Source: Chryseomicrobium sp. FSL W7-1435
GTDB lineage: Bacteria > Bacillota > Bacilli > Bacillales_A > Planococcaceae
Length of the DNA: 64,000 bases
Direction: 5' to 3'
Assembly: GCF_038595005.1 (NCBI RefSeq)
Contig: NZ_CP151997.1
Span: 1,860,001-1,924,000, forward strand
Shown one piece after another: positions 47,149 to 63,741 of the stretch. Position numbers and translations under genes: made by a program. The notes under the pieces are model-generated. The model was not told the DNA's origin. It made no database searches and worked only from the letters and a program-made list of their open reading frames with translations. Numbering within the stretch: the first letter of the stretch is position 1; every line of letters starts with the position of its first letter.

Positions 47149-47874
47149 TTAGCTGGTAAGATTCCATCCTCCATCAACTGCAATACACTGGCCAGTAATG
47201 AATCCGCTGTCCGTTGAAAGAAGAAAAGCTACGGCATTCGCCACATCTTCTGGACGTCCTTTGCGTTTTACCGGAATGGATTGAATCGTTATCTCTTCAT
47301 CCTCTACTGTCAAATGTTCATGAATAGAAGACTGGATATAGCCTGCTTCAATCATATTCACTCTAATTGGAATCGTTGCCCATTCTCTTGCCAGACTTTT
47401 CATGAGTCCAATTTGCGCTGCCTTCGCTGCACTATAAGCTACTTCCCAAGCTGCCCCCTTAGCCCCAAATATGGAACCTATAAAAACTACAGAACCATTT
47501 GTTAACTTTGGGTAGAAGCTTTGAAGTAGAAGTTGAGGACCCACCACATACTGGTCAAACATTGATTGAGTCTGCTCGCGAGTCGTAGCAATAAATTCTT
47601 CATAAACAGTTTTTCCATGTGCAAAAACAATGGCGTCCAACTCAAATATAGAGGAGAAGTCAAAGTGTCCTCTAGATTCTATTGAAAAGCAAAGTGTATT
47701 AAACATTTGATCCGGAAAGTTAGTTTGCAACTCCTGCTGTAAAGCTTGGATTTTGTCTATAGATTGAACATAATGCAGATAGATATTCCATCCTTCTGAA
47801 GCTAACCGACGTGCACAAGCTTCCCCTATGGAGCCGGAAGCACCAATGACTAGAGCAAACTTATTCGTTCTCAT
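47149..47874 (-). CDS. ymfI: Short-chain dehydrogenase/reductase YmfI
   Basis: 241-residue Rossmann oxidoreductase. The NAD(P) motif is VIGASGSIGEACARRL at the N-terminus. The active-site Tyr/Lys are in EVAYSAAKAAQIGLMKSLA, with a serine in VVFIGSIFGAKGA, and the C-terminus is TGQCIAVDGGWNLTS. It is annotated as 3-oxoacyl-ACP reductase-like, but the substrate is unknown. The chosen ATG (47874) overlaps the ymfH stop by 14 bp and lacks a good ribosome binding site, suggesting coupled translation. An upstream in-frame ATG would add 18 residues. Confidence 0.88.
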   Translation of the reverse strand: MRTNKFALVIGASGSIGEACARRLASEGWNIYLHYVQSIDKIQALQQELQTNFPDQMFNTLCFSIESRGHFDFSSIFELDAIVFAHGKTVYEEFIATTREQTQSMFDQYVVGPQLLLQSFYPKLTNGSVVFIGSIFGAKGAAWEVAYSAAKAAQIGLMKSLAREWATIPIRVNMIEAGYIQSSIHEHLTVEDEEITIQSIPVKRKGRPEDVANAVAFLLSTDSGFITGQCIAVDGGWNLTS

Positions 47875-49156
47875 TTGACGGAAGAATGACAAACTGGGTA
47901 TGTCTTGCCGTGTTTTGCAACTGTTCATAAGCTCTTTGCAAATCTTCTAGAGTAAGCGTTTCAACGACAGGTAGCACTTGGAATAATTCCATGTCATTAA
48001 AGCGATAGCGTGTGAATTGGTTCGCTATATATTCGATTGAATTTAAAGAGCGCATAAACAATCCTATCTTACGTTTTTTTGTTCTTTCGAGTTGTTCTTC
48101 AACTGATGGATATTCTGAAAACGGTACTGCGAGTTGCTCACGAATAACTTTAATTAATTCATCAGGTTGAACAGTGTCTGATCCGATCATTGTGAATCCA
48201 TAGCTGCCCTCTAAAGAAAAGTCTGCCGAATACGATTCATCAATTAAACCTAGTTCATACGTTTTCTCAAAAAATGATGAAGACCTGCCAAACAAAATAT
48301 CTAGCACTGACTGCATGGCTAGCTCATAACGAAGCATTTCTTCACCAGAGACTGCTTTGATTGGCGCTTTGATCCCAAAGAGAACCTTTGGTTGAACGAC
48401 ATCCATTGTCATTTCTCTGTAAGGCACAGCTACTTCGTCTGGCTCTGCAGGTAGCATATGCACAACTTCCGGTTTGTCTTGGAATTGTTTTGAAACTTGG
48501 TTTTTTTTCACTAATTCCAAGAATGCCTTAGGCTCAACTGCTCCTACAGCAAACAATACCATGTTTGATGGGTGATAAAATGTTTCGTGGCACAAATACA
48601 AATGCTCCGCCGTAATATCTTGAATGGACTCTACAGTTCCTGCAATATCAATTTTCACAGGATGTTGATGGTACATATTTTCTATTGTACCAAAATACAA
48701 GCGCCAATCCGGCATATCATCGTACATTGTTATTTCTTGAGCAATAATGCCTTTTTCTTTATTCACAGTTGCTTCTGTAAAGTAAGGCTGCTGAACAAAA
48801 TCAAGAAGCGTATTTGTATGCTTGTCAATTTTATCAGTAGCTGAAAAAAGGTATGCCGTTCTAGTGAAGGACGTGAAAGCATTTGCAGAAGCTCCCGCCT
48901 CACTAAACTTTTGGAATACATCCCCATCTTCTTTCTCAAACATCTTATGTTCTAAAAAATGAGCAATTCCATCGGGTACGCGCACTTCATCTTTTCCTGG
49001 AGGAACAAAATGATTATCAATCGAACCGTATTTCGTTGTAAATGTCACATATGTTTTTGAAAAACCAACTTTAGGCAAGACATATACATCAAGCCCGTTT
49101 GGTAATTTTTCATGATAAAGCGTCTCATTTAATTGTTCAAAATGGAGTTCATTCAC
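47861..49156 (-). CDS. ymfH: M16-family zinc protease-like protein YmfH
   Basis: 431 residues of the insulinase/pitrilysin family. The inverted zinc motif HxxEH is present (GIAHFLEHKMFEKEDG), with a downstream glutamate in VNKEKGIIAQEI, so this member should be catalytically competent. The start is GTG 49156 with AGGAGG 8 nt upstream. It follows ymfF without a gap; the two probably form a heterodimer like other M16B pairs. The physiological substrate is unknown. Confidence 0.92.
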   Translation of the reverse strand: MNELHFEQLNETLYHEKLPNGLDVYVLPKVGFSKTYVTFTTKYGSIDNHFVPPGKDEVRVPDGIAHFLEHKMFEKEDGDVFQKFSEAGASANAFTSFTRTAYLFSATDKIDKHTNTLLDFVQQPYFTEATVNKEKGIIAQEITMYDDMPDWRLYFGTIENMYHQHPVKIDIAGTVESIQDITAEHLYLCHETFYHPSNMVLFAVGAVEPKAFLELVKKNQVSKQFQDKPEVVHMLPAEPDEVAVPYREMTMDVVQPKVLFGIKAPIKAVSGEEMLRYELAMQSVLDILFGRSSSFFEKTYELGLIDESYSADFSLEGSYGFTMIGSDTVQPDELIKVIREQLAVPFSEYPSVEEQLERTKKRKIGLFMRSLNSIEYIANQFTRYRFNDMELFQVLPVVETLTLEDLQRAYEQLQNTARHTQFVILPSNENE

Positions 49157-60366: not shown

Positions 60367-61266
60367 GATGGTTTGAAGTAAATTATTCCGATTCGTTTCA
60401 AAAGTTGTCCATAGTTGATCAAATTGCGCTTTCTCTTCATCAGTCAGTGTTAACAGTGGTAAACGTACCGCATCCGAATAGCCATGAAGTTTTGATAGAG
60501 CATACTTGACAACCGTTGGATTTGGCGAAGTAAATAAACCATCAAATAATGGCTGCAGAAGTTGATGGTATCGAGCAGCTAGTACATGATTCCCTGCATC
60601 AAAAGCTCGGAACATCTCTTGCATCTCACGTCCTACGATGTGAGAAGCGACAGATACAATCCCTTTGCTACCTATTGCATACAGTGGAAGCGACAAGCCG
60701 TCATCTCCACTATATACACCAAATTGAGATTCACTTTGTGAAATTACTCGAGTGATTTGACCAACATCTCCACTTGCTTCCTTCATCCAGAATATAGAGG
60801 GATGTTGACTTAACTCTGCTGTAGTCTCAGCCGACATATTGATCACGGATCTGCCTGGAATGTTATAAAGCATAAGTGGCTTCTCAGCAGCATCTGCAAT
60901 CGCAGTGAAGTGCGCGACGAGGCTGCGTTGATTCGGCTTATTGTAGTAAGGAGCTACTACCATGCAGCCATCCACACCTAACACTTCTACTTGTTTTGTA
61001 AAAGCAATTGTTTGAGCTGTGTTGTTGGAACCTGTACCAGCAAGAACTGGTACACGACCATTGACATACTCGACTACTGCTTGAATAACAGCAAGCTTCT
61101 CTTCTTGAGAGAGCACAGGTGATTCTGCCGTTGTTCCATTGACCACTATACTCTCTGTGCCCGTGTCGATTAGATGATTCACTACGCTTTCCAGTTGGTT
61201 GAAATCTACTTCACCTGTGACGGTAAAAGGTGTGATAAGCGCAGTTGATACTTTTCCTAAATTCAC
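60358..61266 (-). CDS. dapA: 4-hydroxy-tetrahydrodipicolinate synthase
   Basis: Condenses aspartate semialdehyde with pyruvate, the first step specific to diaminopimelate/lysine and dipicolinate. 302 residues of the TIM-barrel DHDPS family. Visible are STALITPF, NGTTAESPVLSQEEK, the tyrosine in LMLYNIPGRSV and the Schiff-base lysine in FWMKEASGD. The start is GTG 61266, overlapping the asd stop by 4 bp (GTGA). In B. subtilis dapG (aspartokinase I) lies between asd and dapA; here the genes are directly fused in translation order. Confidence 0.96.
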   Translation of the reverse strand: MNLGKVSTALITPFTVTGEVDFNQLESVVNHLIDTGTESIVVNGTTAESPVLSQEEKLAVIQAVVEYVNGRVPVLAGTGSNNTAQTIAFTKQVEVLGVDGCMVVAPYYNKPNQRSLVAHFTAIADAAEKPLMLYNIPGRSVINMSAETTAELSQHPSIFWMKEASGDVGQITRVISQSESQFGVYSGDDGLSLPLYAIGSKGIVSVASHIVGREMQEMFRAFDAGNHVLAARYHQLLQPLFDGLFTSPNPTVVKYALSKLHGYSDAVRLPLLTLTDEEKAQFDQLWTTFETNRNNLLQTIED

Positions 61267-62303
61267 TTTGACACCCCATTCAGTTCAATCATTTTTTCGG
61301 CTATTTGGATAGAATTCAAAGCAGCACCTTTCAGTAAATTATCTGCCACTATCCATAAATGGATGCCCGTCTTCTCGTTTGGATCTTTTCGAATTCTTCC
61401 CACGAAAACAGGGTCTGTATTTTCTGCATAAAGAGGCATTGGGTAGTGCTGGTTAGCTGGATCATCTTGTACAACTATCCCGTCAGCCTGCGACAGCAGC
61501 TGGATAATTTCCTCATAGGATAACTCCGTCTCAGTCTCTAAATACACAGATTCTGAATGACCTGTCACGACAGGTACACGAACACAAGTTGCAGCAATTG
61601 CTAGTGAAGGCAATTCCATTATCTTTTTCGTTTCATTCATCATCTTCATTTCTTCAAATGTGAAACCATTGTCTTCAAATACATCAATTTGCGGCAAGAG
61701 ATTGCCAGCAATCGGATAATGTTTTGGTTGGCTCTTAACTGGCAACACCTGTGGATTTGGTTGCTCTATCCCTAATTGATGACTTTCTTTCTTTAACTCT
61801 TCAATAGCTGCCGCTCCTGAACCCGATACTGCTTGGTATGTTGAAACGATGACTTTTTTGAGACCGGCTTGCTGACGAAGCGGCTCTAAAGCACAAACCA
61901 TTTGAATAGTTGAGCAGTTGGGATTCGCAATAATCCCTTTGTGATTTTGCAGAGCTTGTGGATTTACTTCTGGCACAACAAGCGGTGTTTCAGGGTCCAT
62001 GCGGAATGCGCTTGTATTGTCGATTACAACTGCCCCTCTTGCAACCGCCTCTTTAGCTAGTTGACGAGAAACATCTCCTCCTGCAGAGAAAAATGCAAAG
62101 TTTACACCCTCAAAGGCTTCAGGTGTTGCTTCCTCTATTACATAGGACTGACCATTTATATCAAGCTGTTGACCAGCAGATCGTTTTGACGCCAGTAGTT
62201 TTAAATGGGAGTAGGGAAAATTCCTCTCAACTAATTTCTCAGCTATTTTTTGACCTACTGCTCCTGTCGCTCCAACAATGGCGACTACATATCTCTCACT
62301 CAC
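61263..62303 (-). CDS. asd: Aspartate-semialdehyde dehydrogenase
   Basis: NADPH-dependent reduction of aspartyl phosphate. 346 residues with the nucleotide motif VAIVGATGAVGQKIAEKL at the N-terminus, catalytic cysteine in IIANPNCSTIQM, YQAVSGSGAAAIEEL and the histidine in VRVPVVTGHSES. The start is GTG 62303 (MSERYVVAIV), 6 nt after GGGGAG; a longer frame upstream is not needed. It forms a coupled pair with dapA. A 105-bp gap separates it from dpaB. Confidence 0.96.
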   Translation of the reverse strand: MSERYVVAIVGATGAVGQKIAEKLVERNFPYSHLKLLASKRSAGQQLDINGQSYVIEEATPEAFEGVNFAFFSAGGDVSRQLAKEAVARGAVVIDNTSAFRMDPETPLVVPEVNPQALQNHKGIIANPNCSTIQMVCALEPLRQQAGLKKVIVSTYQAVSGSGAAAIEELKKESHQLGIEQPNPQVLPVKSQPKHYPIAGNLLPQIDVFEDNGFTFEEMKMMNETKKIMELPSLAIAATCVRVPVVTGHSESVYLETETELSYEEIIQLLSQADGIVVQDDPANQHYPMPLYAENTDPVFVGRIRKDPNEKTGIHLWIVADNLLKGAALNSIQIAEKMIELNGVSK

Positions 62304-62408
62304 ACAAAACTCCCCTTCCTGCATTCATAATGGCGATATTGTATCATATACGGTATGAAAATTCATTAAATTAAATAAATATTACTATAAATTATATTTC
62401 GGAAGAGA

Positions 62409-62999
62409 TTAACTATAAGAAATGAGTAGGGGCTGGAGTTGTTCTCCATCAAGTGCAGCTTCTACAGTTTTGGCAAGTTTTGAAAAGTCAGCTACAAGAG
62501 AAGTAGGTTTTTTAACCGGATCATCTTGCCCTAAAGGAATGAGGTAAATGTTTTTACTACGCAACAGCGCCATAACATTTGGTCCGTTCATTCCTAGTGC
62601 GTCATTTGTAGAGACACCGACGACTACTGGCTTTCGGTTTCTAAGAGTGGCCTTGGCAGCCATCAATACAGGTGAATCTGTTTGGGCATTGGCAAATTTA
62701 CTCAGTGAATTTCCTGTGAGGGGAGAAATCACCATACAATCGAGCGGCGTGATGGGTCCAAAAGGTTCCGCCCCTGCTATCGTAGTGACTACTTTGCGAC
62801 CACATAATTCTTCAAGTTTAGCTACCCACTGTTCTCCACTACCAAAGCGAGTATCTGCTGATAACACAGAGTACGTAACGATTGGATGCACTTCTGCCCC
62901 TTCATTAAGTAATTGTGTAATCATCCCCTCTAATTCAGGAAATGTACAATGCGAAGCGGTCACCCCAAAACCTATCCTTTTATTAGCTAAAGTACTCAG
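62409..62999 (-). CDS. spoVFB: Dipicolinate synthase subunit B
   Basis: Flavoprotein-like subunit of the mother-cell enzyme that oxidises dihydrodipicolinate to dipicolinic acid for the spore core. About 196 residues. The N-terminus STLANKRIGFGVTASHCTF matches SpoVFB, and ISPLTGNSLSKFANAQTDSPVLMAAKATL is typical. No ATG, GTG or TTG fits: a CTG at 62999 is 7 nt after AAGGGG and aligns with the family initiator, overlapping dpaA by 17 bp. Alternatives are TTG 63020 or ATG 63038/63047, none with a convincing ribosome binding site. Confidence 0.9.
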   Translation of the reverse strand: MSTLANKRIGFGVTASHCTFPELEGMITQLLNEGAEVHPIVTYSVLSADTRFGSGEQWVAKLEELCGRKVVTTIAGAEPFGPITPLDCMVISPLTGNSLSKFANAQTDSPVLMAAKATLRNRKPVVVGVSTNDALGMNGPNVMALLRSKNIYLIPLGQDDPVKKPTSLVADFSKLAKTVEAALDGEQLQPLLISYS

Positions 63000-63741
63000 T
63001 GAAAATCCCCTTCCGTTCAAATAATTGAATAAAGTCATTTGCTGCATCCAGCGGGTACACTTTGCCAGGTAATGCTAATAGATGATAGTATAAAACATCT
63101 ACCGGCTGCTGGATGCCACCTGGCAAAGATGCAAGGTCAATGACACAATGAGCATTGTTTGCAGTTTTTGAATCTAACCATTGATACGGAATTGTATTGA
63201 TGCATAGACAATCCAACTTTAGAGACGTTAGTAAATCAACTGCTTGAAATCCTTGTTGCCGAGCCTCTGCTTGCTGACTGATAGACCGCGTTCGAATTCT
63301 CACTTCTCCACCCAATGCCTTCAATTTAACAGCAAGGGTTTTTGCTACTCGACCATACCCTGCGATTTCCCAAAAATAAGAAGAAATTCGTCTAGGCATG
63401 TGGTGATAAAACCAATGCAGAAAACTTTCGGCAGTCAAATCGGCATTCATCCACAACCAATCTTCATCAGCCGTATAGGTGGTCACGTTTTGTGAATTAA
63501 AGTCAACAAAACTATGTTTGTTACCACTCCAAATCTCTTTAACGTTGGAAGGAATGATTAACTCTGTTTGATCATGCACCATTCCTATAGCAAGAAACAG
63601 CAAATCGACTTGGTTATTTTCATCATTTGATTGGCAAAAAGTATTCCAGTTCATGTATTGTTCAGTAGCAATTCCCTTGTGTTGCAGTTGCTCTGCTAAT
63701 GCTGTGTATCGGCTATCTTCTCCAATAATGACTATTCTCAT
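62983..63741 (-). CDS. spoVFA: Dipicolinate synthase subunit A (divergent)
   Basis: Rossmann-fold dehydrogenase-like subunit of dipicolinate synthase. 252 residues, about 45 shorter than B. subtilis SpoVFA, with loops shortened throughout the N-terminal half. The C-terminal half keeps LDCLCINTIPYQWLD, VIDLASLPGG and LALPGKVYPLDAANDF. The dinucleotide motif reads EIAGYGRVAKTLAVKL, with Ala where the third Gly is usual. The ATG overlaps ymxH by 4 bp. Identification rests on the C-terminal motifs and its location before dpaB and asd. Confidence 0.85.
   Translation of the reverse strand: MRIVIIGEDSRYTALAEQLQHKGIATEQYMNWNTFCQSNDENNQVDLLFLAIGMVHDQTELIIPSNVKEIWSGNKHSFVDFNSQNVTTYTADEDWLWMNADLTAESFLHWFYHHMPRRISSYFWEIAGYGRVAKTLAVKLKALGGEVRIRTRSISQQAEARQQGFQAVDLLTSLKLDCLCINTIPYQWLDSKTANNAHCVIDLASLPGGIQQPVDVLYYHLLALPGKVYPLDAANDFIQLFERKGIFTEYFS

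Follow-up and report, generated by a model that had tools for sequence, protein, structure and literature searches.

A CTG codon as the putative translational start of the dipicolinate synthase gene dpaB in a Chryseomicrobium genome

Where does translation of dpaB begin in Chryseomicrobium sp. FSL W7-1435? The question is raised by a gene cluster on the minus strand of the window, that is, the whole stretch of 64,000 nucleotides analysed here (contig NZ_CP151997.1, positions 1,860,001 to 1,924,000; all coordinates below are those of the window), where the earlier note had found no ATG, GTG or TTG at the position expected for the start and had pointed to a CTG instead. The genes are arranged in the order ymxH-dpaA-dpaB-asd (Table 1). 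This order is that of the spoVFAB (dpaAB) operons of Bacilli, which also share the short or overlapping dpaA/dpaB junction and the Shine-Dalgarno (SD) sequence inside or beside the end of dpaA; unlike them, the present locus has CTG in place of ATG, GTG or TTG, two codons upstream of the start that is usual in the bacterial family. Read from the CTG, DpaB scored 288.8 bits against the NCBIfam profile NF006161 (cut-off 156) and 287.1 bits against TIGR02852 (cut-off 229), covering the latter over its full length (positions 1-187 of 187), and it matched the PDB entries 3mcu and 3lqk with E values of 1.3e-76 and 2.1e-72. By these profile scores it is a member of the dipicolinate synthase subunit B family (TIGR02852/NF006161), and its gene adjoins dpaA and precedes asd, which is the neighbourhood of that subunit. 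DpaA reached 76.7 bits against NF006162, under the cut-off of 261; the DpaA proteins read in relatives of the bacterial family have 253-294 residues and about 30-41% identity to the one found here.

Table 1. Coordinates of the features at the ymxH-dpaA-dpaB-asd junction (SD energies in kcal/mol)
Feature	Position	Strand	Remarks
dpaB (spoVFB), dipicolinate synthase subunit B	62409..62999	-	read from CTG: 196 aa plus stop
candidate CTG initiation codon of dpaB	62997..62999	-	proposed from SD, spacing and family alignment
Shine-Dalgarno core AAGGGG (longer pairing CGGAAGGGGA)	63007..63012	-	-11.5 kcal/mol against the anti-SD; 7 nt before CTG
dpaA (spoVFA), dipicolinate synthase subunit A, 252 aa	62983..63741	-	last 17 nt overlap the CTG-read dpaB
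alternative dpaB start ATG	63045..63047	-	16-residue extension; without SD (-1.2)
alternative dpaB start ATG	63036..63038	-	weak SD (-3.1)
alternative dpaB start TTG	63018..63020	-	without SD (+0.3)
predicted N-terminal peptides of the extended DpaB readings			MQQMTLFNYLNGR or MTLFNYLNGR
ymxH (YlmC/YmxH family), precedes dpaA	63738..63977	-	TIGR02888 52 bits, cut-off 44.2
asd, aspartate-semialdehyde dehydrogenase, downstream of dpaB	61263..62324	-	NF011456 485.9 bits, cut-off 223

The dpaB frame is open from directly after a stop at 63077-63075 and is intact throughout. A listing of its codons along the minus strand confirmed that no ATG, GTG or TTG occurs at the expected start: the canonical codons upstream of the CTG are the ATGs at 63047 and 63038 and the TTG at 63020, and the next one downstream, GTG 62963, falls within the first conserved motif, GFGVTASHCT. 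The CTG itself, the AAGGGG ending 7 nt before it and the 17-nt overlap with dpaA, all claimed earlier, stood when the coordinates were re-checked. Each candidate start was scored by the pairing energy of the 17 nt upstream of it with the 16S rRNA 3' end, for which we assumed the general sequence rather than that of this genome. The energies for the CTG and the three upstream codons are given in Table 1; GTG 62963 reached -6.3 kcal/mol. Against a background of the 46 ORFs of at least 200 aa in the window, the score of the CTG was matched by 0.06% of the internal codons (16,281 in all) and, when NTG codons alone were counted, by 1 of 998, and the SD in front of it is thus more than chance. The neighbouring codons share this SD in the score (AGT 62996 with the same energy, ACT 62993 with -8.4), their spacings by the script's count being 9 and 12 and that of the CTG 6. 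As is looked for in a natural CUG start, there is no SD-backed canonical start near the conserved N-terminus and an SD is placed at normal spacing. On sequence evidence the best dpaB start is CTG 62999, as supported by its SD, its spacing and the length of its product; no other candidate has a ribosome-binding site.

Gene finders that allow ATG, GTG or TTG alone would call an extended dpaB, and translation could indeed begin at ATG 63047 or 63038 (or TTG 63020) through reinitiation or coupling without an SD, adding 7-16 residues to the protein. The frame is open there and the codons are canonical, but their pairing energies are poor and the extension finds no counterpart, since neither the dpaB profiles nor 3mcu/3lqk align with anything before residue 19 of the ATG 63047 reading. 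Nor is the extension a feature of the bacterial family, which supports the CTG: of 130 relatives, 103 have a stop in the dpaB frame somewhere between the ATG 63047 position and their start. The remaining 27 have no such stop, so the open frame in this genome is unremarkable. We regard an upstream start as very unlikely.

Concerning the relatives, dpaB was present in 162 of 220 genomes of the bacterial family, the present one included; the start regions read in 137 of the remaining 161 comprise 130 distinct sequences. All 130 have canonical starts (69 ATG, 31 GTG and 30 TTG). Relative to the CTG column, 127 of them begin two codons downstream, two begin one codon downstream and one begins in the column itself; the usual column is occupied by ACT in this genome. 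Outside the family, 52 loci gave 51 distinct sequences, in 46 of which the start lies one codon downstream of the CTG column; the script chose a canonical start in all 51, although the choice for L051 is unreliable, as only part of that sequence matched and the start position had to be extrapolated. A CTG-started dpaB was therefore seen in none of the 130 family sequences and none of the 51 from outside, and the parts of the literature available to our search yielded none either; a search of a plasmid collection returned one weak match only. The CTG is conserved in no sequence available: the three congeners examined are without the gene, other genera have canonical starts, and a search for a second strain of the species found none. 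In one relative, L018, the same column likewise holds CTG, but there the codon follows the SD immediately and an ATG comes two codons later. The earlier proposal that the CTG lines up with the usual N-terminus holds to within two residues and not for the exact position. The resulting DpaB of 196 aa compares with typically 194-198 aa in relatives without an open upstream start, its N-terminus lies at most two residues from every family start, and it exceeds the aligned start of 3mcu by one residue. The SD energies at the family starts average -11.9 kcal/mol (sd 1.3), and 38 of the 130 are weaker than -11.5. By this alignment of family starts, the genome has kept an SD of ordinary strength and begins dpaB two residues before the family norm. 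In one relative (L123 in G098) the usual start position of dpaB is occupied by ATA and two consecutive ATGs precede it by two to three codons, a natural shift of the start.

Two further kinds of candidate were discarded. Long open frames had suggested DpaA-DpaB fusions in G155, G190, G197, G220 and G230, but in all five a stop lying two codons ahead of the CTG column closes the dpaB frame. Elsewhere in the window, CTG 47778 in the frame 47149-47946, presumably encoding an SDR-like protein, was rejected because it would remove the conserved nucleotide-binding start and because an ATG with a weak SD sits where such a protein should begin. That plausible ATG of the minus-strand gene, besides its poor SD, overlaps the preceding gene.

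The rarity and weakness of the codon speak against a CTG start. According to PMC11497404 (from its reference 22), CUG accounts for 0.024% of bacterial start codons, and in E. coli its yield is 0.86% of that of AUG, which is little for an enzyme required in large amounts. Belinky and others (2017; PMC5622118) counted switches to CUG at 2 of 61,358 AUG, 1 of 5,080 GUG and 1 of 2,468 UUG reconstructed starts. These switches resemble the dpaB case in that a canonical start was replaced by CUG; unlike theirs, the ancestral dpaB start codon is beyond reconstruction because the sampled congeners have lost the gene. Closer in architecture are infC, ccpN and cvfC1 of Staphylococcus aureus, where, according to PMC13009471, weak AUA or AUU starts are combined with strong SDs at normal spacing, and ccpN and cvfC1, behind extended SDs, reach about 10-30% of AUG. 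Those yields indicate that in a Gram-positive bacterium a strong SD may raise initiation at a weak codon far beyond the E. coli value, and by analogy it could do so for CUG itself. In contrast to the putative CTG of dpaB in a single genome, the ccpN and cvfC1 starts are conserved and were demonstrated by ribosome profiling and reporters (same source).

The earlier note had gone further and suggested that the CTG could set a low DpaB:DpaA ratio, a selected throttle for which the weakness of CTG in E. coli (PMC11497404) and the throttling of S. aureus ccpN and cvfC1 by non-canonical starts and extended SDs (PMC13009471) might be invoked. This found no support here: the CTG is conserved in no relative read, its SD is level with the mean of the relatives, and the relatives pair strong starts with equal SDs. 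DpaA and DpaB are moreover thought to act jointly, which also speaks against such a ratio. With sporulation being lost in the genus, drift or damage at the start accounts for the CTG as well as regulation does. A selected throttle is thus highly improbable.

A start-codon lesion is the main rival to a working CTG. According to it, sporulation is being lost in the genus and a mutation in this strain or species has turned the dpaB start into CTG, leaving DpaB in traces or absent and any spores that form poor in dipicolinate (DPA). The congeners lend it weight. No dpaB was detected in G001-G003 (no match at E <= 0.001), and two of them carry deletion remnants before asd: G002 (L099, about 1045-1410) has short stretches of ymxH, interrupted by a stop, and of dpaA and dpaB, and G003 (L100, about 2647-2921) has pieces of the same three genes. 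Upstream of asd in G001 (L098) no ymxH-dpaA-dpaB remnant rose above noise. The three also have spoIVA only as fragments, several of them with stops (L094, L095 and L096), SpoIIE fragmentary or absent, SpoVAD as weak short matches inside other proteins only and, in two of them, one sigmaE/sigmaK-like fragment each. In the present genome SpoIVA is full length with 470 bits (cut-off 459.9), as are SpoVAD (345 bits, under the cut-off of 411.8, as in two other dpaB-bearing family members) and SpoIIE (279 bits, under its cut-off as also in G012), and two sigmaE/sigmaK-like genes are complete, the one named sigK presumably being so from its place. Spo0A is intact in all four species sampled, each of which has one gene for a small acid-soluble spore protein (SASP). 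Among these four congeneric species, ours is the only one whose sporulation programme looks intact. SpoIIIAA was useless as a marker, without a true match in this genome, the three congeners or G012; loss of SpoIIIA components in spore-forming Planococcaceae has been published (PMC7924749).

Against a lesion, the DpaB frame and its SD are intact and relative-rate tests give no sign of a faster-evolving DpaB. The further sporulation genes examined here have full frames and canonical starts, such codons being available in spoIIE, sigE, sigG, the sigK-like gene, spoIVA, spoVAD and the SASP gene. A lesion is on balance rather unlikely. It is distinctly unlikely, too, that sporulation has been caught in mid-loss, with the DPA synthase genes of the congeners deleted, dpaB reduced here to a trickle through the CTG as a first step of decay, the spores consequently poor in DPA and the rest of the programme intact. 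As a separate observation, the sigmaK-like gene (L213) has a full frame of 247 codons in which no canonical start is preceded by a strong SD, the best energy being -2.4 and that of the ATG giving 241 aa being -2.2.

The measures of selection on DpaB do not agree. Mean identity to four outgroups was 0.598 here and 0.590 for the other family members, patristic distances to the outgroups gave no acceleration, and 16 Tajima tests of DpaB against four members of genus g4 all had p > 0.4. Conversely, of 63 DpaB columns that are invariant elsewhere, four differ in this genome, and the pairwise distances scaled by Asd are the highest of 38 taxa for DpaB (1.18 vs 0.71), DpaA (5.63 vs 3.17) and YmxH (4.50 vs 1.99). 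These columns and distances hint at relaxed selection; they count against the CTG start, and the distances would suit a lesion. In trees, ymxH, dpaA and dpaB of this genome are basal in the family whereas asd groups with genus g4 with 0.995 support, by either a long-branch effect or a different history, and this discordant placement of asd could cause the conflict among the rate measures, of which we trust the Tajima tests most. Neither the broken frame nor the loss of conserved sequence that would mark a pseudogene was found, allowing for the 4 of 63 columns and the Asd-scaled rate. DpaB thus appears to be an intact protein under selection, perhaps weaker than in other genera.

In spite of the rarity of CUG, its absence from every other dpaB read and the base-call error or strain mutation that may lie behind this site, we favour a weak but working start over an early lesion, and give a probability of about 0.6 to the reading that dpaB of this seemingly sporulation-competent genome is translated from CTG 62999-62997. 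Ribosomes would initiate at the CTG by means of the strong SD inside the end of dpaA, probably assisted by those terminating dpaA 17 nt further on, a translational coupling that the overlap makes plausible. Formylmethionine would be inserted at the CTG to give a DpaB of normal length. The codon most likely arose by a single-base change from ATG, GTG or TTG, together with the two-codon shift of the start, under weak selection on sporulation, and need not be a regulatory device. The use of the CTG, its weakness and the help from coupling are what we infer from the sequence.

Whichever reading is right, gene finders restricted to ATG, GTG and TTG would assign DpaB a wrong N-terminus. If the codon is a lesion, the genus provides a brief succession of stages between an intact and a deleted DPA synthase. 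If the CTG is used, dpaB would be one of the few bacterial genes with a CUG start and a readable phenotype, namely the DPA content and heat resistance of the spores, and the efficiency of CUG could be measured in a natural setting.
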